From Fragilaria crotonensis (taxonomy: Eukaryota; Bacillariophyta; Fragilariophyceae; Fragilariales; Fragilariaceae): a DNA stretch of 42,377 bases. The notes below the pieces were generated by a model that was given only the letters and a program-made list of their open reading frames with translations, was not told the origin of the DNA and searched no databases. Every line of letters starts with the position of its first letter. Position 1 is the first letter of the stretch. The translations under genes and the position numbers were made by a program. Positions 12,006 through 36,201 of the stretch are shown piece by piece. Location: the NCBI GenBank assembly GCA_022925895.1, contig JAKSYS010000549.1, forward strand, positions 1 through 42,377, written 5' to 3'.

Positions 12006-12476
12006 TGTTGAGATGTTCCAGATCTCGGCAACAGTACTTACACTTCCGGTGCGCAGTACCACGGTATTCCTACCAGCTAGTAGTTTGACAACACTATAAA
12101 CCCTTGTTTGTTTTCCTCTCTGCAATGTTGTGACTACTTTAGATTACTCCTATCAATCCTCCCAGACCTCTTGGTCTTACCAAATTGATCTTGCTTCTTG
12201 GAAGTAACCTTCTTAGCCTTGTTCTTCACCTCAATCCATGCATCTTCATTAATTATATTTCTCGCACCGTTGATTCCTTTCGTTTCGATCGTACCAGTCA
12301 ATCTTGCATGTTGGACCTCATCCGTAGGAATTCGTATTCCATTTACGAATCCCGAATAAATATTCTTGAACGAATCTTCCAGATTCCGCACGACTGTCGG
12401 TCGTGCGTACTGCACTGTCATAGCAGTCCCGTTTCCACTGCTACTGTCGCTTGTCAGCAAACGCTTATCCTCGACA
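12006..12476 (-). repeat. 3′ LTR of the Copia element
   Basis: A 471-bp direct repeat of 27684–28156. The polyprotein frame runs into it and stops at 12134, so the last 114 or so codons lie in the LTR. A TTTATA box-like word is present on the minus strand about 90 bp from the low-coordinate end. Confidence 0.95.
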
Positions 12477-15125
12477 TCCTCCCTCCAACATTCAAGATTC
12501 CCATTCCTGATTCTCGCTGCATGCTTCGTGTGCAATTTCTTGGGGCAGTTCTTATTCAGTATGTCCGCCGAGTTCTCTTCCGATCGCACGAACTGAACCT
12601 TTAAATAACCTGCTTCTTCAAGTTCTCGAATAAAGTGTGCTCTGACGTCAATATGCTTCGTCCTTGCTCCAACGTGTTGATTCTTCACTAGATAAATCGC
12701 TCCCAGATTGTCTTCGTAAACACGCCCAACCAATTTCTCTTCTTTCGGGTATCTCATGACTTCGTCCAATAGCATCATAATAAACTTGTTCTCACATGCT
12801 CCTTTCGCCAGGCTTATGTACTCAGCCTCCGTACTTGACAACGTAACCACATGTTGAGTTTTCGACTCCCAGTTCACCAACGTACCACCAAGTGTATGTA
12901 GCCCGGACGAAATGCTCTTGCGGTCATCAATGTTCTTCGCGTAATCCGAATCAACAAACGATATGGGCCTCAATTCCTTCGGTTTCCTGTACGCTAAACC
13001 TTCATAGTACCTCGCCTTGATATGTCCCACTAAACGCTCTAGTGCTTTCCAGTGCTCGTCACCTGGATTAGACAAATGTTGCGCCAACTCTCGTGCAGGA
13101 TTCGCCAAATCAGGTGCCAGCTTGGTCATCAAATACATAATCTTGCCAACAATCGAACGGTACTCGGTCATTCTCACAGGTTCTCCCTTGTTCTTGCTTA
13201 GGAATTTGTTTGGATATCCCGGGGTCTCAGCTTCCTTGATACTCCTTCCCACACTCGTCTCGAATGACTCAACAATTTCGTCCTCCAATTTTGTCATACT
13301 CGCAACAACGTAGCTCTCACCGTTATCGTCAGTTTTCCAGTCGTACCATACTCCAAGATGCTTCTTCAAACGTCCCAAGTCAGAGATATTGAACCGTTTC
13401 TTAAGTTCCGACTTAAACTTCTCAATTGTATCTTTCTTTCCAGCAAGTAAAACGTCATCCACGTGTACCACTGCCATCAGAGTCACTTTGCCTGCTGTAT
13501 TCTTCCAATAGTAAAGGCACGGATCAACCAGACTCTGTATCATCTTCATGACTTGCGTCAAGTATCTGAACAATGTCTTCATGAATAGGCGCGGAACGTC
13601 AACTCCTCCATACATAGGTCTCGTCAGCTTGATACAAAACTTCCTCCGTTCGTCTTCCGTGATAAATCCTAGTTCAACCATTCCTTCTGGCCATTCAGCA
13701 AATACTTCTCTGTCTGCTTCAAGTTCCGCATTTAGGAATGCTGCTTCGATGTCAATCATTTCCATGATCCAACCTTTGCCCTGCCGGTACACTGCAACTG
13801 CAATTGTAGTTCGTACTGTTGTGTCTGTTGCAACCGGCGAGAAAAACTCAGTGTAATCCACTCCTGGGATCATGACGTAGCCCTTAAGTACGATCCGACT
13901 CTTGTATCGCAATGACCCATCTTGCTCTTCCTTGATCTTAAATATCCATTTCACAGGTATAGGCTTGCGTCCTTTCAGCATCTCTCTGGGAAACTTCTTC
14001 CAGGCATCACGTGACAGAAAATTGTTGATTTCCACAATGGCTGACGGTTTCCACTTAATTCCGTTCTTCCCATCCATCGCCTTACGAAACGTTTTCGGCT
14101 CTCCAGGATCCGATGATAAAGTCGCATTGAATGCAACTTGGTCCGTTCTACTTCGTGTTCGTACTCCAACTTCGTCGTCCTCGATTCTGATTGGTTCATC
14201 AATTCCAAGTCTCTTCATTTCGTTCTCCAGTCTCGTTACGCTTCGTTGCGGCCTCTCGGTTTGATCAATTTCGTCAACTTTGTCGTTCGTTTCGTTCTCC
14301 GCCATTTCTGGAGCATTTTCTCTCTGAGGAAGCTCAGGTAAGTCCTCCTCTTCCACACGCTCGTTGCTGTCATCAGTCTGGACCGAACGCGAGTCGTCGC
14401 TGTCGCTTTCGTCTTCAATAGCGGCAGCATCGTAGGTTTTTCGAATCTGGTCGTCGCGGTCGTCATCGCTTCGTTCGTCGATTTCTCCATCGATTCTCGG
14501 TCGTTCGTCGTCGTTGAAAATCGCATCCGCGTGTATCCTCCCTGCTGCAGACAATGGTGGGCTCAGAGAACGTTGAACGACGGCGAGTTCTTCGTCATAT
14601 TCGGGGATCAAGTGAAGTTCCTTGCTTGCGACCTCCTCTTCTTGCTCAATTGGTGCCTCCTTCTCGTCCAAAATCAGCTCAGGGTCGAAGACCTGAGTTA
14701 GGGTCAGTCTGATATCGTTGGCCGCGTTCGTCACGTCGGCCCAAACATGCACATCACGTGTTTCCACGACCTTGCTTGTTACTGGATTGTACATACGGTA
14801 CACATCCCTGGCATGGTTTTCACCATAGCCAATCATCACCATGGGGGAACTCTTCTCCTTGAACTTCCCCTTCATGGTGGCCCTGTTTGTAACATAGCCA
14901 ACCCTCCCAAACTGGATCAAATGAGGATAGATGTTGCTCTTTTCACCATAGAATTGCTCGTCCGGAGGTACTGTACTGCGTGTATTCGGTAGCACATTAC
15001 CCAGTAGTGCAGCGGTCTTTGTCGCTTCCGCCCACAACTTCGCTTGCATCTCTTTTGTCCATGCTGCGGCAATCATCATAGCCAACGCACGCTTCGCATC
15101 TCTCGAAAACATCCGTTCCACGACA
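12134..15125 (-). CDS. Copia polyprotein, C-terminal part: integrase end, RT, RNase H
   Basis: This part continues the protein begun at 27623. It opens with VVERMF, the end of the integrase core carrying the catalytic Glu (codon 15116–15118). An acidic linker follows. The reverse transcriptase shows WIFKIKEEQDG, IDIEAAFLNAE and the active-site VHVDDVLLAG (about 13455). The RNase H shows VDSDYA, TLSSTEAEY and the KHIDVRAHFIRE end. The C-terminal tail extends into the 3′ LTR and is basic and Lys/Arg-rich. The frame is unbroken over about 1,000 codons. Cut off from its N-terminal half by the 10-kb insertion, it cannot be made as part of the polyprotein here. A downstream ATG inside the transposon end would give only an artificial start. 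Confidence 0.95.
12477..12486 (-). promoter_or_regulatory. Polypurine tract (plus-strand primer)
   Basis: On the minus strand GGAGGGAGGA directly precedes the first base of the 3′ LTR (TGTCGAGG). This is the standard position for the RNase H-resistant plus-strand primer, and it also fixes the inner edge of the LTR. Confidence 0.85.
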
Positions 15126-15127
15126 CC
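15126..15127 (+). repeat. 2-bp target duplication (CC) of the DNA transposon, left
   Basis: CC flanks the transposon at 15126–15127 and at 25165–25166. Deleting one copy with the element restores the Copia reading frame exactly. Confidence 0.8.
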
Positions 15128-15151
15128 CATCAGAAAGCACTATATGGTGAG
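15128..15151 (+). repeat. Left terminal inverted repeat of the DNA transposon
   Basis: The 24-bp end matches the inverted right end at 18 of 24 positions: an outer perfect 8 bp (CATCAGAA), a divergent middle, and an inner perfect 8 bp (ATGGTGAG). Confidence 0.85.
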
Positions 15152-15505
15152 GCAACAATTAAATGTTGAGAAGACACACAATACTGTTCATTAGTTCTTG
15201 GAAGTCACATGTAAATGGTTACATTCCCCATATATCTTATGATGTCACCGTTAAACGTATGTATTGAACATATTAATCACAATTATTGTTGATAGTCACT
15301 TAATACATTGTGTGTTTCTCGCCATTAGTTGTATCGCATCGGACATTATATTGCATGTATGTAAATTCAAAGTTAGATTGAATGTTATGAAGTCGCCATT
15401 GGTTTTTTTCTCCTAAGCAATGTATTGTTGGGGTTCCAATGTTTGTAGGGACTAGTAACTCATCAATGGCGGTGTCGAAATATACTAATTTAGTAAAAAT
15501 GTTCA
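15152..15505. other. Transposon left subterminal region, no gene
   Basis: AT-rich sequence between the left inverted repeat and the stop codon of the acidic-protein gene. It probably serves as its 3′ region and as transposase-binding sequence, but I could pick out no repeated motif. Confidence 0.5.
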
Positions 15506-17282
15506 CTACTCATCATTCAAATCCCACGCCGCTCGAATATAGCGTGGTTGCAACATGCTGGCTGACCCTTCAACGGCAGTCGGTTCATCACTTATTCTCC
15601 CTCCTACCTTCTTCCTGTTTCCCTCTTTAATGCAATAGTTTAGGAACTCCTTTTCCACTGCAGCAGCCTGCGGGCAAGCCCTGTCCTCAACAACCAAGTC
15701 GTACAGCTCATTAAAGCGCCTCATGCCGGCATGACTCCATCCGCCATATTTGCAGGTCCCACTATTCTGAACGGTATACTTTCCCGAATTACTTTCTTTC
15801 CGCTTTGCTCCGATTGTCCTGCCTGTGCACTACCCTGTTTCGTCCACTTATCTTGGTAATTCTCGTACATTAGTAGAGCAAATGCCTCGTCGCTTACTGT
15901 GACCAGCTTGTCACTGCTACCCGTCATCGTTGCCTGTGAGATCAGTTGATATTGCTTTTGAACATTCCACACTCGTTTTCCAACCACACAGGACAAGAAT
16001 TCGCCAAAGAACCAAAACGCAGCCTCCTTTTCACGTTCGGTTTTTGCCCGCCTGAGCGTACACAACTCCTCGATGGTGAACAATTCCTTGCCCTTCTCTT
16101 GGAATTTGGGCATCGTTTCCTCCACCACAATCTTCTTTCCCGCCGTCTCGCATGTACTCCTCTTTGCATTCAACGACTCATTGAAGACACTTTCGTAAAC
16201 CACCCGATACATCAAGCGCTTGTCCTGTGGGACCTTTTCATGCCTCATCACCCAATCCATCGCCTCTCGTAACATGTCATCATTGCTTATAAATTTAATT
16301 TTTCGAAACACCTTTGATGTAACGAATGCCTTAACCCGTTGTGTCGCATACTCTTGCTGATTCCTCCTCGATTCACTTTTGGACATGCCACGAATTGGTA
16401 CGTCAAGGTTCACAACAGCGGACTCACCATTTTCTTTCCTCCCGGAACTCTTGCGTTGCATGCTTAGTGTACTAGTCGAACTTGCGCGATTGTTCCTGTC
16501 CTCATCCTCCACATCCTCGTCATAAAGTCTCCTCTGTATCTTTGAGCGTCGCGGAGGAGTCTCTTCGTGGCTTGTTGCACTCGCATAGTCATCTTCTCTG
16601 TCCTCATCCTCCACATCCTCGTCATCAAGTCTCCTCTGTATCTTTGAGCGTTGCGGAGGAGTCTCTTCGTGGCTTGTTGCACTCGCATAGTCATCTTCTT
16701 CATCGGCGTCACCTGCTTCTTTCTTATCTGCGCAATCATCATCATCATCATCATCATCATCCTCCAAAACCTCTACTACGGCTGCAATTGTAGGGTTCGG
16801 AACGACGCGGCCTGCAAAAAGATTTCCATCATCGTCATCGCTCGGGTCAGATTCATTTTCGTAAGATGATGACGATGATGATGATTTGTGTAACTTGGGC
16901 GCTCTCACTGGTTTTCTGGCTTTTCCTGTCATCTTCTTCCTTTTCACGGCTCCTTCCCTTGACGACACGAGTGTTAACTTCCTTGGTTGTTCAAGAACAT
17001 CGTCCACATCGTTCGATGAGACTTTAGTTTTCTGCCTTCGTTGATCACGATTATTGTCCACCTCCTCCACTTCATCATTGCTGTCGACGTCGTCGCTGGC
17101 AACGTCAATTTTGGGGCAGGTTTGGTCGCAATTCTTTTCCCAGTCGACTTTCTTCTCGCTACACTAGTACTTTTCCTTACCTTTCCGTCTTCTGTCCGAC
17201 GTTGTTCCGTCGTGGAGACTTTCTCACTTGTCCTGTTGACCTTGTTCGTGGTGAGCCTGTCATGGTTTGTCCAACAACTCAA
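15506..17282 (-). CDS. Transposon-borne acidic protein of unknown function
   Basis: I do not recognise the family. About 590 residues if two frame breaks are bridged: one near 17090–17110, one at 15721–15724 where two frames overlap at ATGA. Each fits a single missing base. The N-terminal third is basic (RRKSTGKR, KRKKMTGKARKPVR), so nuclear localisation is likely. It is followed by Ser and Asp runs and two 34-residue tandem copies of an acidic unit (16496–16699). The C-terminal half looks globular and conserved in style: MDWVMRHEKVP, FTIEELCTLRRAKT, FWFFGEFLS, TVSDEAFALLMYENYQDKW, RFNELYDLVVEDR. An accessory role in transposition, for instance DNA binding, is a guess from context. The start is uncertain: no ATG lies in frame at the extreme 5′ end. 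Confidence 0.65.
16496..16699 (-). repeat. Two in-frame 102-bp tandem units inside the acidic-protein gene
   Basis: Units 16496–16597 and 16598–16699 are nearly identical and encode a 34-residue acidic unit containing YASATSHEETPP and SKIQRRL. The small divergence indicates a fairly recent in-frame duplication. A separate ATC/GAT run nearby encodes nine Asp residues. Confidence 0.9.
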
Positions 17283-17671
17283 GTGAAGCCAATGAAAACA
17301 ACTAGAGAAGCAGAAGAGCGATGAGTTGTGTTTGTTCCTTTTCTGTTTTGCGATTCTATGGTATCAATAATGGTGTTTGCTGCACAAATTATTGTGGCAA
17401 AGTCCCATTCAAACAGTGAATGCGAACCCCCTCAAATGTGCATACGTATGTATTGTATACTCAAAAGTGTAGTTGAATGCTTTAAAAATGCATGTGCATC
17501 GTTTGAATAAACGAGATATTGCTCGTGTAACAGCAATATGGCTTCTATGTAAGAATATACGGTTCAGTTTAAGCGTATAGGGCATGGTCAGTCGTTTTCA
17601 ATATTTGGGTGTTCCTCACGATGCAAGGCAGGACTTCGCTCTGGTACTGTATCTACGCGTGTGCGTGCGTT

Positions 17672-17689
17672 GAAGTGCACGTGCACTTC
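17672..17689. promoter_or_regulatory. 18-bp perfect palindrome centred on CACGTG
   Basis: GAAGTGCAC followed by its exact reverse complement. CACGTG is the G-box/E-box core bound by bZIP and bHLH factors in many eukaryotes. Its position in a divergent promoter region suggests a control element, but this is inference. Confidence 0.55.
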
Positions 17690-17827
17690 GACACTCCGAA
17701 TCAACGTCCTCATATTACGCATAGAGTAACAGAGACTATGATTTTAATACTAATGAACTTGTACATTTGACATGTGTGTTGATATATATATACAAATTAA
17801 CAATTTAATAGTGCGTATATATATATA

Positions 17828-18100
17828 AATGCACTCTACCAGTGCATGTGTGCGTTGGACATGTGTTTCTCCTTAAATGTAATCACTGTGCTCATGTGTG
17901 TGTTTATACTATTCGTATCCTTGTTCTTATATAAAAGCACTATACCAGTACTTGTGTGCAATGGACATGTGTGTAACTCGCTAAGTATTATGATGGTGCT
18001 CAAATGTTTATAATATACTATTCAAATGCGAATATTTATATAAACTAACCGTATCAGTACTTATGTGCGCTGGACAGGTGTGGTCCTCGCTAAGTATCAT
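17828..18100 (+). repeat. Divergent tandem repeats, 106–109-bp period
   Basis: Three units are aligned by the motif TA(C/T)CAGT(G/A) at 17837, 17943 and 18052, each followed by a TGTGYGN…TGGACA(T/G)GTG block and an AT-rich second half. A weaker fourth unit may precede at about 17720. These could be subterminal transposase-binding or enhancer repeats. Confidence 0.75.
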
Positions 18101-18651
18101 GAATAAAAATTTCTGCGGTATGTTTTGTACAGTGCTTTGTTGTAAGCAGCTTGAAGACATTTAGAAATAGATTTTTCAATCGTTTCTGCATTGAAGTCCC
18201 AGGTTAATCCTGGGATAGCTTTCCACTGTAAAATGCATAGTAAAGTCAGTTCGCATTTTCCCTTTTTCGGATACACATGTATTTCGCATCTGCAATGCGG
18301 TATGTTTTCTACGCCATTTGTTCGTAGAACAAATTCACTCCAATTCGACGACAACAACACACCGTTTGTTATTGCTTTTTCTTGGCAATGGCAAGTTATT
18401 GTTGTTGATTGTCGCTCTGGTATCGCTGTTGTTGTCGACTGTCGCGGCGTGAACGTTCTCTTTTTGTTCTTTCGTAGTTGACGTCGTTCCCTGCCATCCA
18501 GTGGGTTGAACGACGCCTGCGAAGGAGCAACACGAGAACAGGATCGCTGGTTTTGTCTACTGTCGCGGCGTGAACGTTCTCTTGTCGTTCTTTTGTAGTT
18601 GACGTCGTGCCCTGCCATCCAGTGGGTTGAACGATGCCTACGAAGGAGCAA
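18097..18651 (-). CDS. Possible small protein encoded in the transposon core
   Basis: An ATG-less open frame of 184 codons. The N-terminal half merely translates the 121-bp duplication in two frames and is unlikely to be meaningful. The C-terminal 90 or so residues look more protein-like, with CRCEIHVYPKKGKCELTLL and IPGLTWDF. It overlaps the start of the oxygenase gene on the other strand. No family recognised; it may be chance. Confidence 0.25.
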   Translation of the reverse strand: MLLRRHRSTHWMAGHDVNYKRTTRERSRRDSRQNQRSCSRVAPSQASFNPLDGRERRQLRKNKKRTFTPRQSTTTAIPERQSTTITCHCQEKAITNGVLLSSNWSEFVLRTNGVENIPHCRCEIHVYPKKGKCELTLLCILQWKAIPGLTWDFNAETIEKSISKCLQAAYNKALYKTYRRNFYS

Positions 18652-18655
18652 GACG
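18439..18655 (+). repeat. 121-bp-period direct duplication at the oxygenase start
   Basis: Units begin at 18439 and 18560 with CTGTCGCGGCGTGAACGTTC and run to GAAGGAGCAA. The second unit contains the ATG of the oxygenase gene (18634). The equivalent position of the first unit reads ACG, so only the downstream copy provides a start. Confidence 0.9.
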
Positions 18656-21103
18656 AGAACTTTATGTCGTCCAGTCGACGTAATAAGCGCAGTATAGCTA
18701 ATAAGAAGCGAACGTCGTCTTGTGCGACAGGCTTGCGAAACCTTGGGGCGTCAGCGAAGGAGAAGCGATCATCGTCTTGTGCGACTGACGGCAAAAATGG
18801 CGTTTGTCACAATGGCCAGGATGACATCCACGCTGATGGGAATAATGGAAAGGAGGATGATGACTTGGTATTTGAGGTTGATAGCGATAGCGATCAGGAT
18901 GATGACTTGTTGTTTGACGTTGATGGCGATAGCGATAATGAAGGCGATGTTGGTGGCTATGACGGTCCATGCTTGCCGAATCGACCGGAGCGCAAATTCC
19001 TGCCGTCGCAGAGACAAGCTATGCTATTGCTGTCGATGGCGGTGCCTCCTGAGGATAGAGCTCACTTCAAGGAGCGCTATCATGCCTTCGCGACTGGGAA
19101 GGAGACATCTCCGTGTCCCCTGGCTGGAACGACGCGAAAGGTATGCAACACTAACGTTGCTTGGATAGCCGCTGCATACGGATGCGACTTCGTACACCAA
19201 CTACAATGCGCGGCTGACATGTTCCCATTCTCTGGGATGGAGTCATGCTTCCTCAGCGAGATCTACGTCATGGATGTCATCCTCAATAGATCGCCTTTGA
19301 TGAAAACCGAACCAAGTGCCGAGCTTCCAACAAAGAAGGCTGCTTCATCGGTGGTGGGGTGAAGATGATGTCCTGTTGGTCAGATCATACCATGAAGACG
19401 ATCTTGATGATAAGAATGATTTCAAGTTTCGCACCATGATACTCTTCTTGCCTCAATGTGGCGTTTTCTACTGTGCCAGAGAGCGTCGCAAGGAGGATGT
19501 CGGTGTGGCTAAAACACATGTGGCCCTGGACATGAGCTGGCTTCGCCTTGAGAGGAGCACCGACAGTAATGGGAAGGTGTCGTACACCTTCGGCAAGGGA
19601 GGGTATGTCAAGCGATTTCATATGGAAGAACCAAAACAATTTCGGTACCTGGAGTACCGTGGCTATTCATGTGGGCGATTTGACGAATTCGTTGACCGTG
19701 TTTCGGCATGGCGAATTTCCTTGAACCTCACGAAGGATTTGCAGCAGAATCGGGTTGTCTACAGGGTGGAACAATGTCGGGACAGCGACGGCCCGAAGAT
19801 GGCACCTGATGTCTTCGATGGTTCATGGCATCCCGACATCCCACGGGAATATCTGGCGGTAGAATACAACCAACGCCTTGCAGTTGCGAACAGTGCAAGG
19901 CGGGACGGGCGTCACTATGCCGAGGGGTGTCATCACTATCGTCTGCCGGACACGTGCTGGATCATCGATCCGGCATCTGAACACTTTGTCGACATCATGG
20001 TGGACCTACCTTGCCTTGGTCAGCAGAGGAATCGGCAGTCGGTCATCATGGTGAGGAATGTCAACTTCCTGACTGACGATGGGGGTGAGGATCTTTTGGA
20101 TGCGATGGCTTGTATTACAAAGCATAATAAGGCCTTGAGACTTGCAAAGAAGAAGGGTGCAGCGAGGTCCAATGCTGGTGATTACGGCACCATGCATGCG
20201 ATTGGAACTCATGTGCACTTGGATGGTGTCACCACAAGCGCATACAAGGCAAATGAGGCTGTGGGTGAGGCTCTCCTTAGGGAAATGGTCGTCTCCCTCG
20301 CAGTGATTGGGAGGTGTGCCTTTCCTCAGGTATATGCTGTGATCCGCGACACTGAGGGGAATTGTGGTCTCCATCCTGTGGTGCCGATGGATGGTGAGGG
20401 TGGACGGCGAGTTGGATACACTGTCGACACGAGTGTCGACCTGGGAAACGCTTCTCATTATGACTTCAACGATGCCTCTCAAGGTTACAGTCAGTTTTTG
20501 GAAGACATTCCTGGAAAGGGAACGAACTGGTATCTTGTGATGCCCAACATCCATGGACGTCGTCCTGGTCCCAACTCGACCTGGGTCCCCTTTGCTGGCC
20601 TTGCTATCAAGATCACGAACGGAGTTGCCGTAAGCTGGGATGGTCGAGATATCCGACACTGTACGTCGGTGTCGGAACCGGATGGTCCCCCTGTTGAAGG
20701 GGCCGCTGGTGATTGGGCTGGAAGTGTGCGACATACGGAGAATCATCTGTATGGGACGTTTACTGCGGCAAAGGAAAGAGTGGTTGACGCCGGGAGGAAG
20801 ATGTCTGCTGCTATGGCTGTGGATCGTCCTGAACGCCCCAATCCTGCAGCTGCTGCCATTGCCAGTGGTGACTTGGAAGAGTCAAGCATGCCAGCGACAA
20901 GTGCCAAGAAGAGGAGGAGACGACAGAAAGTTAGGAAGAGATCGCGGCGGAGGCATTCTCATGTTGCTTATGAGGCTGCTGACGATAATGACGATGATGA
21001 TGATGAGGATGATGGTGGTGTGGTGCCGAAGTTTACTGAACCCTTGTTGCCTGTGGAAAGTCCCCATGCTACTACATACCGAATTCCGAAGATGATCCGG
21101 TGA
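18634..21103 (+). CDS. Transposon-borne HxD…H oxygenase-like protein (TET/JBP-like candidate)
   Basis: About 820 residues. Residues 1–110 are Ser/Lys-rich then strongly acidic. The C-terminal core carries HYDFNDASQG (His codon 20456, Asp 20462), WYLVMPNIHG, GLAIKITNGVAVSWDGRDIRHC (distal His codon 20657) and VRHTENHLYGTF (Arg codon 20729). The HxD, a second His 67 residues later and an Arg 24 residues beyond that fit the double-stranded beta-helix Fe(II)/2-oxoglutarate dioxygenases. HxDxND followed by a Gly recalls the TET/JBP DNA-base hydroxylases, which fungal transposons also carry. Substrate is unproven. The C-terminus has a basic cluster (KKRRRRQKVRKRSRRRHS, nuclear) then an Asp/Glu run. 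The frame changes once near 19350–19362 (GGTGGTGGGGTGA), one extra or two missing bases; I found no intron that fits. Confidence 0.72.
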
Positions 21104-21130
21104 AAACACTTTTAATAGCAAAGATGACAT

Positions 21131-24100
21131 CTACCTTCGCTGTTTCTTCCGTGTTTCATGTGACCTGATGGCAACAATATCAACTTCGGATTCGTCGTCG
21201 TCATCCGACTCATCATCACCTTCATCATCGTCGTTGTCATCCTGATCTTCATCATCATCCTCGTCTTCATCATTATCCTCGTCTTCATCATGATCACCAT
21301 CTCTTTCATTACGAACCTTCACTTCGTAATCCTTCTCAAAAGTTGGTTTATGCCTGTCTTTGTGGCAGCTTGTGATCATGGTGTCCCACGCTGATGCCCA
21401 CTCTTCTTTCCTTAGGAAGAGGAAGAGGAAAGACTCGTCTTGTTCACGAACAGTGGGGTCAACATCGCGAATTCCAATCGTTGGTCCCACGATGTTTCTG
21501 ACGTCGATCAGATATAAAATCGGGTATGTTGCTTCTTCATCGTGGTACCACATCTTGTAACGCCCAATCATGGTGTTGCTGTCCATTCTGGTGTTTTCCT
21601 CGTCGATGGCAAGGAATGAGTGCACCAGTGCATACACGCCAGCTTTAATGGGTTCTTGTCCAACTTCGGGATGTTGATCCTCGTGATCGGAGGCAGGTCT
21701 CGCAAGTCAATGAACGTGTGGATGAAGGCTGGGAGGGGATGGGGATACTTATAGTTTGGCCACTCGACCATGGCGTGGTCATGCCATGGTTGACCGTCAT
21801 AGATGCTTGGATGGGCCCTGTATTTGTGTCCCTCAGCGGAGATGAACTCTGTGCTACACCGAAGCTCCCCATCCCCTGTATGGGGCAAACAATACGTTGC
21901 AAGGTAATGCATTGCCTTCCCCTGCAGGGAGTCTCCATGGGGATGATCCCCTGGATACTTGCGAAACCACTGGAATGATGGACGTGCATCGCCAAGAGGC
22001 CATGAGATCGTGAACCTCCGGCCGCCAAGCTTCCACTTATCTGCTGATGTGTTGCTGTCCTCTGCCGCTGCTGACCTTCCCCTCGCCATGCTGGCGTGGT
22101 CGCATTCCATGTCATAAACTGCTGACGAAATGGCGAGGTTCTCTACATATCGTTCTGCCGCTTGCTTCGTGAAAGTCTTCGCCCTTTTTTGTGTGTTCCG
22201 GGCTGTCATCTTGGAAAGTGGTATGTGAGCAGATTCAGCGTAGGCACTGTTCACATTCTCGGGCACACCATGGTCCAAAATATCTTCGCAAATGTGTAAC
22301 ACCAGATGATTCTTGATCGTGTTGTTTCCCATTCCAGTTTGTCGAGGACAGATGTTTGCAACATTGCGCATGAGCCACTGGACTGCGTATTTGGACTTCA
22401 CGACTTGATGCCTTGGCATTTCCGGTTGCTTCATCCACTGGTGCCACTGGAGGAGTGACGACACGGCCAATATCCAATCCGATACATGGCATTCGAAGCG
22501 GAGATTGTGATCGGGATGGGTGGGGATGCTCTTCGTTGCCTTGCTCTTCGCCTTCTTCTTCTTTGCCTTGCCTTCTGGCTCCCCCGCCTTCTTCGCCTTG
22601 GGCTTCATGTGGTTCACCTTCGTGTGCTTCGCCATCACCTTCTTGGGGGGCTTCTTCTTGGTCGGGAATATGTTCTTGAATGAGGTGGTATGAAGTGCAA
22701 ACAACTTCACCAGGAGGCATCCAGTGATCTCGTGACCCATGAGATTTGTACCAGATGAGAAGCCCTTGGGAAAGTTCATTCTGGGGAGGTCACGATCACT
22801 ATGTCTTGACAATTGTGTGCCAATTCTTGCACACAGCGCGTCATAACGTTTCACTGCCACAGAATTTTGCCCCCGCTTGGGATGCGAACGCTTCGAGGCA
22901 GTACTTGAACCAACCTAGCGATACAAGGTGCAACATCTCACCAGGGCATGCGCCAAAAATTCCGCGCTCATTGTGTGATCCGAAACGAGCCCTGCCAAAG
23001 CCGTTGCGCAGATAGTTTTGTGACATGTCTTTGAGTGCGTTCAGGTTTGCGGTGGCACCTACTTGACTTACAGCTGAGTTGGCACCAGCGATTAATCGGT
23101 TTATGGCTGCTGGTTTCCTGTGGTTAAACTTTGCCTTCGAGTACCCTGATAAACGTGTGGGGCATTCGCAAACACGGCAAAGCTGCTTGACCTTTTCAAA
23201 TCGGGCAGTGTAATGCCCACAGAGGCGATCGTGTCCTCGGTATCCCCAATGATGAAGGGAATATAGGGTGCAGCACCACTGGATACACTCTCTCGTTGTA
23301 ATGGAGATTCCACTTGAATCCGTGACGTTGGAGGTCAAGGTATCCCGATACTTCGAGGATGAACTCAATCTGAAGGTGCATCTTGTTGAGTAAATATGTT
23401 GCCCATGGCAAACCTGGGAGTGGTTTCAGGGGTACACGGGCAATCACGCTGCCGTCAGGCAGGTATGGGCGCGGTGTAACAGTATCAGGAACACCGCCTT
23501 GCATCTTGGTTTGGTGTGCAGGGCTGCTATGACAAACATAACCAAGAATTCGCATTGCGGTGTGCTTGAACGAACACTGTGCTTCAGAAGACCATGGGAT
23601 ATGGTCAGTGGCTCCATTTGAAGCCTACCGTAAGTGTCGACCTGTGTCTTGTCCATGGCCACGATTGTGGGTAAAATCATATCGACATCTGGATTTTTCA
23701 CGAGGGCTTCGTATGTCTTTCGGTAGCACTGTCCTGTGTTGATGTCACCAATCATCGATGATTTGGGGGGACCAATGAAAGGATCCTTTTCTGGCGAATC
23801 GAATAGGTAGTTTTCATCACGATTCAGCAAAGGGCAGGAGAGTAGGGATGCGAAGACTTCCCTGGCATCGAAATATATCATTGGTACTGTCCTCCTGGAG
23901 TAAGGGAGGTAGAACAACTTCTCCTTCGGAATCAATCCCTTCATGTTGTACCGACAATACAAGTTATGGACAACCTTGCGGCGAGAAGGTTGGCAGTCGG
24001 GATGGAATATGTGACCCTGGCCATTTGCCTTTGCAGCCCAATTGAGAATGCCTGAAAAGGCTTTCAGTGGCGCTTTAGTTCCTTCAGTAGATGCAATAAC

Positions 24101-24571
24101 TCTATATGTACCTTTTCTTCACCAGAGAACCTGTCCAAACCGAATGGATTCAATCGTAACTCCTGCATTTCCTCGTACAAGTCCAAAATGATCCCATCAG
24201 GGATCTCATTGTCCTCGCTCTCATCCTCTGATTCTTCACTGCTGTTACATACAGAGACATCACCATCAGACATCATACCAAAGTCGTCATCAAACCCTTC
24301 ATTGTTATGGTCATCAATTGGTTTGTCAACTGTTGTTCACGCCTAGAATTTTTCTTGATTGTCCTGCACCAGCGGTATCACATTCCTCGTTGCAATCTGA
24401 AGCATCAGGTCTGTGCACGTCATCAAGAACTCCGTTGTTGACCATATCTGATGGCAAGCTATCGTAGAAAGCGGCACAACGTGCATTCCAAGAAAGGTGA
24501 CTGGACAGTCGATGGAAAGCTGCATTGCAACATGCACAACGAACACTACCACCAGTTGGCACCGATGACAT
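21131..24571 (-). CDS. Plavaka-type (CMC/CACTA superfamily) transposase, frame-broken
   Basis: About 1,150 residues if seven breaks are bridged (about 24315, 24080, 23540, 23255, 23235, 22860, 21640), most fitting one missing base. N-terminus: a CACC…HLSWNARC zinc-finger-like motif. Then LLHLLKEL, FSGILNWA, and the family signature PTIVAMDKTQVDTYGRL with the first catalytic Asp (codon 23651–23653). Next ERVYPVV…FIIGDTED with the presumed second Asp, a CRVCECP knuckle, GEMLHLVSLGWFKYCLEAF, a Lys/Ala-rich basic stretch, and HICEDILDHGVPE…AESAHIP with the catalytic Glu (codon 22234–22236) followed by FTKQAAERYVENLA. It should cut and join transposon ends in the nucleus. The C-terminal tail is a long Asp/Glu run ending in a basic cluster. 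It ends 27 bp from the oxygenase stop, convergent. Confidence 0.85.
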
Positions 24572-25140
24572 GAAAGCAGTTCTTGAAAGTCAAAAGTGAA
24601 TCGATGATTGTGAAAAAAACCATTTATGTGACTGGACAAATACAATTACAAGAGTGAATACTTAACAGCAAAACGTTTGCAAGATACATACTTCGTGTGA
24701 AACAATGACATGAAATTTTGAGTGGGTACAAAGCATGGTTACACATTTAAACTTTACGTTCAGTGGAAAATTTTAAAGCGCGCAAGATCCAAATCAAATG
24801 GCAGAATTGGCGGTAAAATATGCGCACAATCGCCGGTGCATGTCGTTAAATAAGAAAATAAAATGTAAAATTACAATCCAATGTTCCATACTACATCACA
24901 AATGTCCAAAACGAACAGCAAAAGTTATCAAATATTGCATCTATAAAATGTAAAATTTATGAACAAACCTTCAATGTTGCTTGAAATAAGAAGACATGCC
25001 GATATCTAGCTACGCATCAGTACATATGCCCCATACACGTGTATGATTTACCTATGTAAATGTCAGTTATAACAATAATATTGTTAAAAGCAACCATATT
25101 ATCACCATTAACTGCCTAAATCTCGCCATGTAAAGGAAAG
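24572..25140. promoter_or_regulatory. Transposase upstream region and right subterminal DNA
   Basis: AT-rich non-coding sequence between the transposase start and the right inverted repeat. By position it should contain the transposase promoter. TAAAATGTAAAATT occurs at about 24859 and again at about 24944, the only short repeat I noticed. Confidence 0.5.
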
Positions 25141-25164
25141 CTCACCATTACGCACCTTCTGATG
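25141..25164 (-). repeat. Right terminal inverted repeat of the DNA transposon
   Basis: Ends TTCTGATG on the plus strand, the inverse of the left end, and contains CTCACCAT, the inverse of the inner conserved block. It is followed by the CC target duplication at 25165–25166. Confidence 0.85.
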
Positions 25165-27623
25165 CCGTTATGTTGTGGCGTATGAGGGGCAGTGTACTCC
25201 AACTGTATCCCGTACTCTCCTTCGCAAATCTTACGTAGCTCGGACATATGTTCACCGGCATTGTCGCACCGAAGATACTTCACAGGCTTTCCAGACGCCT
25301 TCAACTTGTCCAATAAGTCCTTCAGAACTTTTGTTATGACGTTTTTCCTGGCGCCGTAGAAATCCCACGACTTTCTCGTTTTGTCATCCACAAACTTGAA
25401 CCAATAGCGTGACCCCATGACTGTTTCCGAATAAGGGCCGCTCGTGTCCATGTAAAGTCGTTCTCCCGGATTGTCCGCTGTCACCTTAGTAGTTTTGTTC
25501 GTTCTCTTTTGGGTCGCCTTCGCTCGTGCACATCCGTCGCAAACGGACATTTTTCCTGTCGCAATAATTTCGAGCGCCTTCAGCGTTTCTCGCACCACTC
25601 TCTCCGTTGCGTGACCGAATTTTTGATGAGCTTCATTGATGTCCATGTACTGTTTTCGCTCTTTCTTCTCCATTTCTTCGTCTTTTTCGACAATTCCTTC
25701 GACGTTAAACGCCTTTCGTTCTCCTTTGACACGAGATGCAATCAGATACGCCATTGCGTCCGAACCCGTTTCGAATTCAAGCATCTCCCGCGACTCATTA
25801 AAAATCTTTGATCCTTCTTTTCCAGCCACAAACTCGTTTCCTTTCTCTGTAAGTCGGCCAACACTTATCAAATTCTTCGCAAATCCCGGAACAACCATCA
25901 CATCTTCCAACTTCAGCTTCTTTCCTGAGCTTTTCTGTTCCAGGGTCAAATCTCCAATTGCAATTGCTTTCATGGTTTCATTGTTTCCAACTCTGACATG
26001 TTCACCTTCAGTTGCTGTCTTCAAGTTAGTCATCATCTTGGTGTTAATGGAGACATGAGTTGTTGCTCCAGAGTCAACAAGCCAACTTTCATGCCCACTC
26101 TCAGTAACAGGAGACATGAATTTCCTTGAATTAGTAGCAAAAACTTGCTCGTCCCACATCCACTCTGCACCTTGACTCGATTTATCCATCCGGTACTCAG
26201 GTTCCTCTTGCTCCTCGTTAGTAAACTCAGTGTTCTCGACCTTTTCTGCAGCTTCAGACTCTCCTGTCTTGCTTTCCTCATAATGAATTTTGTCTTCCTT
26301 GTGATCGATGACTTCCTCTCCAGCTTCGGGCTCCTGCGCCTTGCTTTCTTCATACTCCAGATCGTCTTCTGCGACATCTTCAATTTTCTCTTCAGCTTCG
26401 TCTTCGTCATCTTCGTCGTCACTCGTTTCGCACATATCAGCCCAACTCATAGTATTTGACTTCTTCTTCTCCCTTCGAACTTTCACCTTGGCTTGCTCGT
26501 CGCCTCTCGGTTTCCACTTAAACTCTCGAATGTCCTTCAACACTGCTCTCTTCGTATTGTTGTACTCAGCAATCTCCTGCAATAACTCCATTGCAAACTT
26601 GTCCGTGTCAAAGTAGTAGTCCTTCGTAGACTCTACGTTCCTCTTGACGTCATCCTCCCGGCTCTCAGCTCCTCGGATTGTCATACCAACAAACATACCG
26701 GACTCTTCCTTCTTTGGACATTCCTTCGCGATGTGCCCGAAAGCTCCACAGTTGTAACATTTGACCTTCAATTTTGCGTTTTCTCGTTCTCCGTTGTTAT
26801 TGTTGTTGCTGTTCGTTCGGCATTCTCTTGCACGATGGCCTTGCTTCCCACACTTGTTGCACTTGCCCTTGAACGCACGCCAGCCTCCTTTTCCGCTTGA
26901 TGTGTTGAGCGCCAGGTGCTTGCCTTTCTCTCTCTCTTTTCCTTCTTGATTTTCGCGAGCTTGCCGATTTTTGAACGGCTCAACAAACATGTCGTAATGG
27001 CCCAGGATCTCGGTTATAAAGTCCTTGTGGGTGAAATCTTTCGACCCAATCTTGCCATTAAGCGAAGCAATTACAGACTCGTACCTTCGTTTGGGCAATC
27101 GCGCCAAAATAGTCGCTTCCATCTGCTCGTCGCTGCGCCTCGTTCCATTTTCGCATTTTTTGACCTCCCGATTCAATCGCTCCATCTCCATGATCCAGAG
27201 GTGAGGATCGTCCAAATCCGACTTCATGTAACACTTCTCCAACTTGGTCGTTGCCTTCACCAAGTCCCTTGTCTTCTTCGAATCGTAGCGGTCCTTCAAC
27301 GCTTGATACATCGCGAACGCAGTTTCGTGAGATTCTATGATTGCGAACGCGTCCCCTCGACAGGACATGATGAGGAAATGCTTCGCCTCGTCGTCTTGGC
27401 GAATCAGCTCTTCCTCTTCGTCGGTTCGTTCGGCCTTTATCGCCATGCTCGGCGACACGCGGTCCTCCAAAAGTGCGCGCTTGAAACCTTTCGTGGCGGC
27501 GAAGACCTCGGCTTTCATGAAAAATTCGCGGGGTTCCATTCCCCCTTTCGTAGTGTCCGTCCCACTGAAGGGAATCACTTTGATCGACTCCAGGGTTGCT
27601 CCAGCCTTCCTCGCTTCGCTCAT
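25165..27623 (-). CDS. Copia polyprotein, N-terminal part: Gag, protease, integrase (interrupted)
   Basis: Starts at ATG 27623, about 60 bp inside the 5′ LTR. Order: Gag helical domain (about residues 1–220); two CCHC knuckles, CNKCGKQGHRAREC and CYNCGAFGHIAKEC (about 26715–26870); a long acidic spacer; aspartic protease with WLVDSGATTHVS (about 26080); the GAG-pre-integrase zinc site (H…H…CDGC, about 25540–25620); and the integrase core with MDTSGP (Asp codon 25446) and RCDNAGE (Asp codon 25263). The insertion falls right after HTPQHNG, before the catalytic Glu. As sequenced, the frame runs 50 bases into the transposon (to 25116), giving a truncated integrase. The frame is otherwise unbroken. 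Confidence 0.95.
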
Positions 27624-28816: not shown

Positions 28817-31800
28817 TCAAGGAATATCGATAGCGCTGAAGTCCACATCGGTGTCGAACTCATCAAACGATTCGACGTAATCATTTGCTTTCGGACGAGA
28901 TTTCGACTTAGCACCAGTTGCGACAACTTTGACTTTCTTAGAAGGCTGCTTTTGAGAGACTAGCTCTACCAGCTCTTCCTTCTCAACAAAGTTATTAATC
29001 GCCCGCAGAAGTCGCTCTCCATATTCCTTGATAATGTTTTCTCCCAGGACCCCAAGGCTTGTGAGCTCTTCGTTGGTCGTAGGTACCGTCCAAGCAATTT
29101 TCTTGATGGATTCAGGTTTCATGATGTTCCACGCTAACAGAGAGCAAACAAGTGAGTGAGCATGAGAGGGAATGGGGGGCATCTTGACCAGTACCACTTA
29201 CAGAATACCTTGTTTCCGGCGATTTGTTCTTCTTCCGCCCACATACCAACCAGTCGGTTGATTAGGGCAATGAGAGTTTGTGTCTTGTCTTGGGGTAGGA
29301 GCGACGGAGTCAGCTGCGATTTACTCCCGACCACCCGTGCATCCACTTCCAAATCACCATCCGAGTCAGAGTCCTGCGAACTATTGATAGTCACAAGCTG
29401 CGAGGATTTGAACTGCCTGCTTTTCGTGGCTGTTTTGGCTGGAGTTTTCCTCTTGGTCGCACTTTTCTCTTTTGGCTTGGCAGCCACGTCATCTTTTACT
29501 TTCGCCTTCGCAGACACCTCGTTCGCTGCGGGGGTCTCTTTCGACAAAGCCCTCGGAAAGTCCAGAATGAATCGACGCTGTCGATTCATGATGGAATATG
29601 CCTGCTCACCAAGTGTGACGTAGTCGGAATTAAAGCCCCCAGCATTTTGAACCTGCTCCTCCACCAATATCTTTTCGTAAATCATGGCGTGAGCAATTCT
29701 GTCAATGTCTTTCTTTGGATACTTCTTGCCTGCCCCAACAGCCTGTAGTTTCGACAAATCAAGGAATTTTGTGGCAGTCTTGCTCTTGCTGCCTCGAAAG
29801 AGCTCAGTAACTTGCAGCAACGTGACGCCTCGGCCGCCACGCTGATTTAACATGCTTTGAAGAAGCTGGAGCAATGCCAAGGCATCGTCGGTCAGATCTC
29901 TTGGTTCGGCCACCCTTCCACTTTTACAATTGTCACATGTCTTCTTGCACTTGCTTCGTTCAAAGGTCTCTCCAAAGAATTCGAGCTGCATTGTTCGCCG
30001 ACAAAGGAACTCGTTCTCACAGTATCGCAAGCATGTATACAGCTGATCAATCTTCCTGTTTGTACTTTGACTGTTTGGATTGTTTGACGCCTTGCGAATC
30101 ATTCCTTCAAGAACCTTCTTGTCCTTGTAGGCGTAGAAAAGGATGCAGTCTGCCTTTCCGCCATCTCGACCTGCACGCCCGGATTCCTGGTAGTAATGAG
30201 TGATCGATTTTGGCATGGCGTAATGAATCACATACCGAACATCAGGTTTGTCGATTCCCATTCCGAAAGCTATTGTCGCACACAGTACATTCAATTGACC
30301 ATTGCTCCACGCGTGATGACGACGTGCTCGTTCGGCATCGTCCACTTCGGCGTGATAAAACGAAACGCGAAGGTTGCTACAACTCTTCTCCTTCAATTTC
30401 TCCTGCAGCTTTTCAGACATGCTTTCGCAGTCCTTACGACTCAGACAGTAAATGACCCCAGATTCCTTGCGACGCGCAGCAATATACCCTGCAATTTCAT
30501 CGATACTCTTGGCATCTTTCTTTCTGACTTCGTAGTGTAAGTTGGGACGGTTAAAGGAAGATCTGTAGCGATATTCGTTCGTCATACCCAACGCCCGGAT
30601 GGCGTCGTTCACAACCTTTTCGTTGGCTGTTGCTGTGAGGGCCATAAGCGGCACATTCGGGTACTCGCGTCGTAGTAACCCTAGTTGGTTGTAGTCTGGT
30701 CGGAAGTCGTGACCCCAATCACTGAAAAAGTGTGAGGCATCGTTTCCATGTGTAAAACGCGGGATGTGTGTAGAATCACTTACCTCAAACAATGAGCTTC
30801 ATCCACCACAAAGCGACTTATATGATTCCTTTCGTGTAATTTTTTCAACACAGTTTTGATCAATCCTGAATGCCGTAACTTCTCGGGAGTGATATAGAGC
30901 AGTTTCACCCCGCCATGTGCCGAAGTGGCAAATAAACGTCGTTGGATATCTCTCTGCTCGGTCTCGTAGTCTTGAGCTGAGTTGAGAAAGACCGATTGGA
31001 CGCCAAGCTTGGTCATGCTTTGTACTTGATCTTGAATTAAGGAGAGGAGAGGCGAAATGACGACCGACAAACCTGGACAGCACCAAGCAGGAAGTTGGTA
31101 GCAAAGGATTTTCCACCTCCGGTTGGCATCAAAACGAAGACGTCACGCCCTTTGAGAGCATTCTCAATGACCTCCTTTGACCTGGGCGGAAGGAAGAGTG
31201 CCCGAATTTGCGACGATTCTCAACATGGTGATCTAAGACATCACCGCCCGGTGGAGCATAATTATTAGTCTCATTATTGTTCCAGTTACCTTCGTTGCCA
31301 TCAGCCCATTGAAAAAAATCACAGGCTCCTTGATCAGCTACTGAACACTTGTAGAATTGACGTCCGGCATTAGCTTCCGATCTTGCAGTCAAGAGGCGAC
31401 AAGGCTGATTGTGCGTCGGGCACAAAGGAGCATTGATGTCCATGTGCGCGCCATGGTTGGATCCACATGCAGTGGTAGCAGCGTGATAAGGCAGTTCCGA
31501 GCTCGCGAAGGTGTTATTTCGGTACGCATCAACTTCTGTTAATCGATCATCGTAACGTCCGTCATCAAGTCTCAAATCAGAGGAATGTGTAAAGCTTTGG
31601 TTGCGGAAATTTTCAGCACCGGATTTCGTCGAGAAGTGTTGCTGGAAAGCATCGTCATTTCCGGCAAAAGAGTTCGAGGCTCCAGACGGGGTGTTTCCTC
31701 TGTGTTGAGATTCTCGAGAATATGGATTCTTTAATGGTGGTTGCCGGGCGTATTCGTTGCTTTCTTCAAACGTATTGGACGACTCGAAGGAGGTACTCGC

Positions 31801-32892
31801 TGGCGGCTTTTGAGGCTGACTGTAGGGATTAGCATGAGCTTGGGAGTGTTGCGCGTACAGCGACTGCTGCAAATGCCCAGCACTTTCTCCTCCTCCAGAC
31901 TGTGAGGTATTCGATAGATCAAAGTGATGTCCCCCATTGTTTGCCGCCATGGATTGTGAGGCATTTATTGACGTCCGAGAAGCATCATGACTCGCTTCCT
32001 GCCGAAAAACCCCGTTGTCTCGTGGAAATGGATGCAAGCCTCGATGCGATGGTTTGGGATCGGTGCTGGACTGCACGGTGGAATCCTCGTTGGACAGATC
32101 ACACAAGTCATAAAAAGCTGGTGCTGGAGGAGAAGATGGAAGCGGATAGGACGACGTGCGTCGCGACGTTTGACTTTGATCATTCCCTTTCGGTGTGGCT
32201 TTGGACGGGACAAAACTGATGTCACTGAGCTCACTATTGCGTTTATTCTGGTGGTTCCATCGTTCTGCCACCAACCTGTCAACATCCAAATCCATTAAGA
32301 GGTCATCGACATGATCATCGGGAACATTTTCCTTCCCTTTGTTTTGTTGACGCATGATTTCCAAGCACATGGTTTGTTCTTCTTTCATCGCGGCTTCTTT
32401 TCCGAAGACACGCTGTGCGCAAGCAGGCGAATTGAGTGCGTTCGGCAAGTGCTGACCAAAAACGGCATTGTGATGATTGCGGATGCGACGAGTAGGAGAG
32501 AGAAAGGGTGCAGTTGATGAGGGTGCGTCTGACGATGGATATAGTGACTTTGTCGGAGGCAAATTCAAAGTCTGGCTGTGCAGACGACCCGAGGAATGGG
32601 TGGGAGCACTACTTGTAATTGCACGCTCTATCTGAGCCAGACTCGATGACTGATAGAGGCTATTATGATCTGAGTTGGAGCTCACGAACGTGTATGTCAT
32701 TGATCGCTCCCGTCTTTCGCGCCAGGCACGTTCTGCGAAGCTCGTTCCATCTTGTTGAATGGCATACTCGAACCCTGTTGTTCTTCCACTCTTCGCGTCC
32801 ACAGTCGATTCTGCCTGATCAAGCCAATCACGGTGATGTTGTCTGTTGTTTTGAATAACGGGCATCACTGTCGCTGTCCTTTCTGTTGCCAT
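28817..32892 (-). CDS. RecQ-family DNA helicase with N-terminal GRF zinc finger
   Basis: A 3′–5′ helicase of the Sgs1/BLM type acting in recombination and replication-fork repair in the nucleus; restored length about 1,315 residues. The N-terminal 500 residues are Ser/Asn/Gln-rich. A GRF finger follows (CPTHNQPCRLL…GRQFYKC…CDFFQWAD, about 31300–31430). Helicase motifs: FGHSSFRPGQ, the Walker A GGGKS region (about 31110), VVDEAHCL (30785–30810), MALTATA and QESGRAGRDG (about 30165–30195). The RecQ zinc site (CRYCENEFLC…CKKTCDNC) and winged-helix region follow, then an HRDC-like C-terminus (SIKKIAWTVPTTNEEL). Introns: 30722–30783 (62 nt) and 29134–29201 (68 nt), both GT–AG. Two single-base losses near 31165 and 31110 break the frame around Walker A. 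Both introns fit the corrected frame, supporting consensus error. Confidence 0.9.
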
Positions 32893-34170: not shown

Positions 34171-35157
34171 GTTTGCTCCTTTAACAAGCTTAAGTTGCAG
34201 CATGACTAGCCCACTTCTTACTCCACATGCCACATTCTGAATCACACAACAACATTCTCAGGCTTTCTATCAGCCAAGTGGCAATTCAAGGTAGTACAGT
34301 ACTAGCAACCTTGCAGCAATTCCCACCAAGCAATGGTATCACCAAGGGTGTAAATGGCCGTGATCATGGTCACGGCACGCTTCTTGTTGGCCAATGGGAC
34401 GGCCTCGACTGCAGTCACCACTCAGTTCATCATGAGCTTTGCCCCTTCGCTGCGCTCCCGTATCTTCAATGGCACTCGCTCAATTGCATTTGTGACATGC
34501 ACCACTTTTGCATGTGCCAACAATGCATCCACCATGAATCAAGGATCCTTGCAACTCATTTTCAGATCAAATGTGTGAAGAAACTGATGAAGAGGACCAA
34601 TTGCATTGTGATGGTCAAGAATTCCCGCGACTGAAAAAAAGGGACGAGGGAAAAAATCTGGCAGCAGAGGAAAAACTGAAATAACTCCGTGTCAACAACC
34701 ACTGGCCAAATGCCACTTCAAACTTCAAACCATGCACCTTTATACTGTTCTTGAGACAATGTCCAAGTTTGGAGTCTGCGGGACGTTGGGCAAAAACGGG
34801 ATGATAAACCCAAATCGGGCGGCTAGACGCTACCGTAGACACTCTGGTAGTAGTGTATCTTACTGGAGTACTGTAGCTTCCGATGGTCCTCTACATGAAC
34901 GGGTACAAGTACTGTAGTATGACATACAGCAAGGCTCGCTTGACTGTTAACGCCTATGCCGGTTAAGCCGGTTATCCTCAATTTCATTTCGATACATTGA
35001 GCATGGAGCATCCATAGACCTCAACCCTCCGCAGACATCCGTGTACCCTGTTGGATGTAACAAGACAGTCCAGCTATATGTGTACATGTAAATGCTTCTG
35101 AAGCTTGCCCGAAACCAATTTCACTACAGACTGCTTCAATATCAAAAGCCGCACAAA
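34171..35157. other. Relic and intergenic DNA, no gene supported
   Basis: The part up to about 34640 resembles the neighbouring piggyBac relic in composition and may be its 5′ half. From about 34640 to the transporter start only short frames and GTAC-type words occur (34845–34920). Confidence 0.4.
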
Positions 35158-36201
35158 ATGAGGAACCAGGATGAGACAAAAGACCCTTCAAGGGCCTTAA
35201 CGCTGATCTTGGCGTCGCTATACGTTCTATCCGGGGTGACTCAACCCCTCATCATGACATTGATCAAAGAAGCGGGCATTTCTGATCCACGAGCTCAGCT
35301 CTACATGCTCTTCTACTACCTTGGTCCTGCCAGCGTGGGTCTGTCTGTCAAAACATGGCCGTCTCCTTCCAAGATTGGAATGACGGCACTGATTGCAATG
35401 TTTGACTTGTCCGCGCAAGCCATGAACTACACCGGGAGCACACTAGCAGGTCCCACAATCTTTTCTATTATATACTCAAGTGTCACTGTATGGACTGCCA
35501 TATTTTCCTTCCTCCTCTTGCAACGACGCCTCTCCGCATTTCAGTGGTTGGGAGTGGTCGTTGTCTTTGGTGGACTTTGTATTATGGGTCTACAATCTGT
35601 ATCGCTTGGAAAAGATGTGATACACGGATCACTGCTGGTGTTTTTCGGTTCCTGCATGCATGCCTTGACCTATGTCATGAGTGAGGGCATTATGCACGAC
35701 GATCACGTCTCGATACAAGCCAATTGTGCCATCCAAGGGATTGTGTGTTGCATATCTGTCGGAGCATGGCAATTGATATACACCCGCACTCATCTGGAGG
35801 AGGTGTTGTTGGATCCCCTCCGAGACGCGGGAACGTCCTGGATGCATGCCCTACTTCTGCTTTTAAGTTTCGGACTATCCAATTTTGTGCATTCGCTTTC
35901 ATTCTTCTTTACACTCCGTCACTTTCCCGGTGGCTCCACGTCGGCGGGTGTTATGAAGGGATTGCAAGCCGTTCTTGTGTTTGTCGTTACGTCTGTGGTG
36001 TACTGTGGGAGACTCGGAGGACCAGAAATGTGCTTTTCTTCGTTGAAACTCGCATCGCTCCTCACTGTGGTGTCTGGTGTGGCTGTTTTTGGTCATGCGA
36101 CAGAACAGGCGCGATGCATAAGTGAGGAAGGATACGAAACAATTGTACAACACGAAGAAGGAGAACGGCAACAGCGTTCGTTATTGGATTCATCGTGCTA
36201 G
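35158..36201 (+). CDS. EamA/DMT-superfamily membrane transporter
   Basis: About 347 residues from ATG 35158. An in-frame ATG at 35092 would add 22 residues without membrane character, so I prefer the internal one. The protein has about ten hydrophobic segments in two halves, as in drug/metabolite transporters. The first half contains YLGPASVGL, AMNYTGSTLAGPTIFSIIYS and the following WTAIFSFLLLQRRLSAFQWLG with VVVVFGGL. This pattern is typical of EamA repeats and of SLC35F-like nucleotide-sugar-type carriers. The C-terminal tail is short, hydrophilic and cytosolic-looking. Substrate cannot be told from sequence. The frame is intact and intronless. No presequence is evident. Confidence 0.85.
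   Translation: MRNQDETKDPSRALTLILASLYVLSGVTQPLIMTLIKEAGISDPRAQLYMLFYYLGPASVGLSVKTWPSPSKIGMTALIAMFDLSAQAMNYTGSTLAGPTIFSIIYSSVTVWTAIFSFLLLQRRLSAFQWLGVVVVFGGLCIMGLQSVSLGKDVIHGSLLVFFGSCMHALTYVMSEGIMHDDHVSIQANCAIQGIVCCISVGAWQLIYTRTHLEEVLLDPLRDAGTSWMHALLLLLSFGLSNFVHSLSFFFTLRHFPGGSTSAGVMKGLQAVLVFVVTSVVYCGRLGGPEMCFSSLKLASLLTVVSGVAVFGHATEQARCISEEGYETIVQHEEGERQQRSLLDSSC

Follow-up and report, generated by a model that had tools for sequence, protein, structure and literature searches.

A Plavaka-type transposon of the diatom Fragilaria crotonensis with a candidate TET-fold oxygenase as cargo

Plavaka elements, cut-and-paste DNA transposons of the CMC group, were reportedly first described by Iyer and others in 2014. 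DNA transposons that carry a TET-like gene, PlavakaB elements among them, are known from fungi; according to the available text of Kojima 2025 (PMC12730594), PlavakaB has CATCA...TGATG ends and a 2- or 3-bp duplication, and all the TET-carrying Plavaka families belong to it. Here we describe an element from the freshwater diatom Fragilaria crotonensis, found in a window of 42,377 nucleotides that makes up contig JAKSYS010000549.1 (C502). It resembles the fungal PlavakaB elements with a TET gene (Agaricus bisporus, Gymnopus confluens) in its Plavaka transposase, its CATCA...TGATG ends, its 2-bp duplication and an adjoining gene whose product has a predicted TET fold, and it differs from them in its host and in having a conserved third gene (compared with the same part of PMC12730594). 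We consider it probable, with appreciable room for doubt, that this is a Plavaka-type transposon with a TET-fold Fe(II) oxygenase as its standing cargo, which oxidises or modifies methylcytosine of the element.

The oxygenases of the described systems differ from the diatom family in their active sites. The fungal Plavaka oxygenase is of the PE type with HxE, as far as the accessible part of PMC12730594 describes it, whereas the diatom family keeps HxD. Compared with what the available text on CMD1 of Chlamydomonas reinhardtii (PMC7854593) gives, the diatom family would have Asn for Arg410, no counterpart of Arg418 and many transposon-borne copies, and the two 2-oxoglutarate (2OG) arginines of human TET2 and Naegleria NgTET1 are not both recognisable in it.

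The element and its recurrent gene pair

The element is inserted into the integrase region of a copia polyprotein, which its ends split. A pattern of the joined flanks (up to 3 mismatches) matched 11 uninterrupted copia sites at other places in the genome searched (62.1 Mb, 881 contigs), with 1 or 2 mismatches each, and a control matched 0. Three further copies, on contigs C797, C8 and C341, start and stop at identical terminal bases within unrelated flanks; all four copies, 10.02 to 10.22 kb long, have the CATCA...TGATG ends and a 2-bp target duplication (CC in the window, CA on C797, TA on C8 and TA on C341). Because the copia polyprotein is split, the copia sites elsewhere read through, the copies share their ends and the duplications recur, we judge the ends to be real, and on sequence grounds 15128..25164 is a mobile unit, in agreement with the sharply defined termini of the first-pass annotation. 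The terminal 8-mer CATCAGAA, at 15128 (+) and 25157-25164 (-), is by itself not rare (4 in the window against 3.05 expected), and the inverted-repeat score was equalled by 3 of 2000 random pairs.

A Pfam scan of the window gave a PF18759 Plavaka match of 33.2 bits (cut-off 26.3). In a relative on C529 the transposase frame is open over 1107 residues, and against that protein the frame of the window gene is broken at several joints. Read by eye, the C529 protein has MDKTQVD, GHD, CRVC, HLVLH and YAESAH, which would correspond in turn to D, D, C-x2-C, H-x3-H and E. The available text of PMC12730594 gives the order for Plavaka, EnSpm and Transib as D, D and E, where C(2)C and H(3-4)H come after the second D and before E, and the window element shows both the ends and the 2-bp duplication that mark PlavakaB. 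The profile score and this order thus uphold the earlier assignment of the transposase to the Plavaka/CMC type.

The transposase gene faces the oxygenase gene: the oxygenase stop at 21103 and the transposase open reading frame (ORF) at 21131 leave the 27-bp gap between convergent genes that had been noted before. In the genome, 93 oxygenase matches were merged into at least 67 loci, with 74 of 497 candidates scored; linkage was counted on 93 of 93 rows of oxygenase matches and, for the further searches, on 80 of 80, 149 of 149, 79 of 130 and 98 of 98 rows. A Plavaka-type transposase lies within 10 kb at 43 of the 67 oxygenase loci, where density would lead one to expect about 7%. The two genes are convergent at 41 of these loci, in tandem at one and divergent at one, so the pair proposed from the window is linked repeatedly; at one convergent locus, on C286, a Mutator-like transposase is nearer than the Plavaka-type one. 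The linked transposases form at least two groups, which were picked up by different queries.

The third, acidic gene of the first-pass annotation is present as well. It has 88 merged loci in the genome, and its helical C-terminal domain is conserved. It lies within 10 kb at 32 of the 67 oxygenase loci, at 31 of them divergent from and upstream of the oxygenase gene, and all three genes stand together, in the order third gene, oxygenase, transposase, at 24 of 67; at 18 of 67, neither the third gene nor a Plavaka-type transposase was found within 10 kb. The third gene has no recognised fold or family, and that its product binds DNA is a guess. The stretch that separates the third gene from the oxygenase gene holds, at 17799-18102, a direct repeat of about 89 bp in three copies (61-75% alike), which may be regulatory or transposase-binding repeats.

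The oxygenase and its active site

The predicted model of the oxygenase is a double-stranded beta-helix whose closest solved structures are TET proteins, and it is by this predicted fold that the protein is filed as TET-like, outside the Pfam Tet_JBP family. We consider it extremely improbable that the protein is instead another double-stranded beta-helix oxygenase of the AlkB, FTO or prolyl-hydroxylase type. The nuclear-type basic tail reported earlier was found again by eye.

Active-site residues are numbered here on P0001, with counts that refer to aligned rows with a letter at the position (up to 75), and they are mapped onto CMD1, TET2 and NgTET1 by spacing, not by superposition. H609 is present in 75 of 75 rows, D611 in 72 of 74 (with N in the other 2) and H676 in 72 of 74. 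The first-pass annotation had claimed an HxD...H...R spacing: its HxD and second H are kept in at least 72 of 74-75 rows, its R is not conserved, and the putative iron ligands are thus conserved. D614, kept in 72 of 74 rows, lies three after D611 and so seems to match CMD1 Asp350, which lies three after Asp347; in the available text of PMC7854593, Asp350 is aligned with the base-binding residues TET2 Asn1387 and NgTET1 Asp234. The same text places the stacking aromatics CMD1 Phe416, TET2 Tyr1902 and NgTET1 Phe295 six residues after Arg410, Arg1896 and Arg289. Since F710 (72 of 73 rows) lies six after N704 (71 of 72 rows), matching this spacing, we place N704 at the 2OG arginine, which would be Asn here; the 2OG carboxylate may be held by another basic residue. 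Thirteen residues after H609, the 71 rows that have the motif show Trp in 63, Phe in 7 (the window copy is one of these) and Ala in 1; this is the spacing of CMD1 Trp358, a residue in contact with vitamin C that overlaps the site of the 2OG carboxylate (available text of PMC7854593). Two residues after the second His, T678 (71 of 74 rows) apparently corresponds to CMD1 Thr399.

In the window the oxygenase frame breaks between ORFs 18634-19362 and 19316-21103. Because the transposase pieces, too, lie in different frames compared with the C529 protein, the window copy as it reads is either dead or holds sequencing errors. The oxygenase family, judged by its ratios of nonsynonymous to synonymous substitution (dN/dS), is under purifying selection: four distant pairs give 0.14-0.22 at synonymous distances (dS) of 1.2, 2.1, 2.3 and 2.8, the last three of which are near saturation, and near-identical pairs give 0.34-0.82. 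At C131:26000-35900, an open oxygenase-family frame of 808 codons stands with no other ORF of at least 130 amino acids in 9.9 kb, and a near-identical frame lies at C87:156846-158264; these may represent a non-autonomous element or else a gene settled in the host.

A MULE-like second vehicle

Long inverted repeats and duplications of about 9 bp are characteristic of Mutator-like (MULE) transposons. At C108:107618-114812 (L067), an oxygenase gene and a MULE-like transposase lie together inside 72-bp inverted repeats (71 of 72 positions matching), and the element at C560:45876-53079 (L078, L079) is 99.7% identical to it over the 4626 bp compared. The C560 oxygenase, found by element comparison outside the 67-locus search, has 100% protein identity to the C108 gene and is split by a frame change into two pieces. 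The flanks of the two copies differ, and each copy is bounded by a 9-bp duplication (TTCACACGG and CGTTTTCAT). The C108 and C560 elements thus resemble MULE transposons in their inverted repeats, their duplications and their MULE- and SWIM-like stretches, and differ from them by the TET-like gene and by Pfam scores below the cut-offs (17.3 bits against 27.6 for PF10551, 15.8 against 19.6 for the other). A MULE-like transposase is convergent to the oxygenase gene at 2.1-2.3 kb on C108, C286 and C659 and at 9.3 kb on C873; the MULE repeat brackets the oxygenase gene on C286 (32804-40793) and forms inverted-repeat pairs also at C723, C193 and C744. When MULE-like transposases are counted too, the search within 10 kb came up empty at 21 of the 67 oxygenase loci. 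The same inverted repeat is paired 0.6-0.9 kb apart at C626, C173, C152, C351, C327, C323 and C65, resembling short non-autonomous derivatives.

A tree of 14 hand-chosen oxygenase rows unites three of four MULE rows (100/100), four of six window-clade rows (100/99) and both second-clade rows (94/93), with MULE_C659 (partial), PlavA_C285 (beside the outgroup) and PlavA6kb_C22 (beside the second clade) off their label. Given the two vehicles and the grouping of the tree by vehicle, the oxygenase gene appears to have passed from one transposon superfamily to another and to have been kept thereafter. A TET-like gene also moves between superfamilies in fungi, and the MULE-like vehicle lies outside the lineages listed for fungi in the available part of PMC12730594.

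The coordinates of the element are collected in Table 1. Ordinary-looking host genes follow it in the window, with Pfam calls of a RecQ-type helicase part (29134-30792), a GRF zinc-finger protein (31129-32892), an EamA-type transporter (35092-36201) and a family B DNA polymerase with a delta-type C4 zinc finger (38210-40744). On the expression side, RNA-seq of F. crotonensis has shown a rise of 48 mobilome genes at high pH (PMC9732472).

Table 1. Features of the Plavaka-type element and its insertion site in the window
Feature	Position	Strand	Basis or remark
Plavaka-type DNA transposon	15128..25164	.	10037 bp; ends, empty sites, three further copies
Target duplication CC, left copy	15126..15127	.	
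Target duplication CC, right copy	25165..25166	.	
Left terminal inverted repeat, 8 bp exact then imperfect	15128..15151	+	random-pair comparison
Right terminal inverted repeat	25141..25164	-	random-pair comparison
Copia host element, integrase end to reverse transcriptase	12134..15127	-	Pfam RVT_2, SH3_retrovirus
Copia host element, gag to integrase	25167..27623	-	Pfam
Third gene, acidic N-terminal part and helical C-terminal domain, conserved oxygenase partner	15721..17070	-	
Oxygenase gene, N-terminal part, frame break before next part in window copy	18634..19362	+	ORF
Predicted TET-fold oxygenase gene, main part (GTG start set by program only)	19316..21103	+	ORF, predicted fold
Putative HxD iron-binding motif (H609, D611 of P0001)	20456..20464	+	alignment
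Asp at HxD+3 (D614 of P0001), position of CMD1 Asp350	20471..20473	+	alignment, spacing
Phe in window copy, Trp in most relatives, CMD1 Trp358 position by spacing	20495..20497	+	
Putative second iron-binding His (H676 of P0001)	20657..20659	+	alignment
Asn (N704 of P0001) at spacing of TET 2OG arginine	20741..20743	+	alignment
Basic, nuclear-type tail	20906..20962	+	by eye
Plavaka-type transposase gene, pieces in different frames, upstream limit uncertain	21131..24571	-	
PF18759 Plavaka match	23531..23896	-	Pfam

Competing readings and the meaning of the cargo

Several observations weigh against a transposon with a methylcytosine-modifying oxygenase as its standing cargo. At 24 of the 67 oxygenase loci, no Plavaka-type transposase lies within 10 kb, and a first-pass count, made on part of one search's rows, had 98 of 134 transposase loci with no oxygenase gene within 12 kb; thus, neither gene needs the other everywhere. 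The window copy is broken in both genes. The oxygenase of the window has no Pfam Tet_JBP match and no TET/JBP link by sequence (a Tet_JBP search of the genome gave 0 matches, with the control likewise silent), yet its predicted fold is the double-stranded beta-helix nearest to TET, as the first-pass proposal of a TET/JBP-like candidate had it. The Foldseek TM-scores of the TET rows are modest, at 0.19-0.45 to the PDB target with root-mean-square deviations of about 7-13, and identity to human TET2 and NgTET1 in the structural alignment is about 7-12%. Finally, the 2OG arginine is seemingly absent from the family. This absence, with Asn where TET2, NgTET1 and CMD1 have the aligned Arg and with Trp and Thr at the spacings of CMD1 Trp358 and Thr399, favours an enzyme that uses ascorbate or another donor in place of 2OG and adds a larger group to 5-methylcytosine (5mC), marking the same element rather than demethylating it. 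We regard this as unlikely: the residues are mapped by spacing, CMD1 itself retains Arg410 in a turned-away position, nothing clearly corresponds to CMD1 Arg418 and His249, the Trp is replaced by Phe or Ala in eight rows, and the TET2 and NgTET1 fold scores for the predicted model are at least that of CMD1. Doubtful to the same degree is the proposal that two unrelated diatom transposon superfamilies carry a TET-fold family that lacks a 2OG site and, like CMD1, writes hypermodified 5mC on their own DNA.

The target, on the other hand, may be another: thymine, 6-methyladenine (6mA), RNA or protein, or the oxygenase may act directly in transposition, for example by marking ends for the transposase. 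CcTet also accepts 6mA and NgTET1 also thymine (available text of PMC12730594 and PMC12344493), and the linkage to the transposase is tight, but the Asp at HxD+3 suits cytosine N4, the gene also accompanies an unrelated transposase, which argues against a role tied to a single transposase, and many transposase loci lack the oxygenase gene; we therefore think another target improbable. The same loci, together with the broken frames of the window copy, would suit a passenger, that is, a captured gene without use to the element. This we consider very unlikely in view of the purifying selection (although dS is saturated in three of the four distant pairs), the conserved active site, the order with two partner genes kept at 24 of 67 loci and the two transposon vehicles.

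We thus retain as the preferred reading a transposon whose oxygenase modifies methylcytosine. In sequence, the mobile unit, its ends and duplications, the recurrent linkage and the conservation of HxD...H and of the base-recognition Asp are all present, and the element moves together with its oxygenase gene. The oxygenase likely reaches the nucleus and binds DNA in the manner of TET proteins; it would then flip methylated cytosine out of the element DNA and oxidise or otherwise modify it, and silencing would be lifted, with continued expression of the transposase gene, or the ends would remain usable, in a host with putative cytosine methyltransferases. The host genome has 13 matches to C5-methyltransferases, and in the diatom Phaeodactylum methylation is confined to transposons (available text of PMC12344493). 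The same escape from silencing has been proposed for the fungal elements, and there too, in the available text of PMC12730594, it is called untested.

The first-pass annotation had taken a diatom Plavaka-like element with such cargo to be new. This stands for the host, since among the titles and abstract openings listed from the literature searched, outside which most subscription papers lie, none reports a transposon-borne TET-like enzyme in a diatom; it does not stand for the kind of element, as TET-carrying Plavaka with the same ends have been published from fungi (available text of PMC12730594). As far as the literature searched shows, what is new is the diatom host, a family outside the Pfam model, the unusual co-substrate site, the conserved third gene and the MULE-like vehicle. 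Transposon-borne TET-like enzymes are thereby extended from fungi to a photosynthetic stramenopile, and the element offers a testable case of mobile DNA with its own candidate base-modifying enzyme, in the group to which Phaeodactylum and its transposon-confined methylation belong. With at least 67 loci in one genome, the oxygenases form a natural family in which to seek new base chemistry and, if the CMD1-like reading were true, the element would be selfish DNA that makes a hypermodified base of its own.
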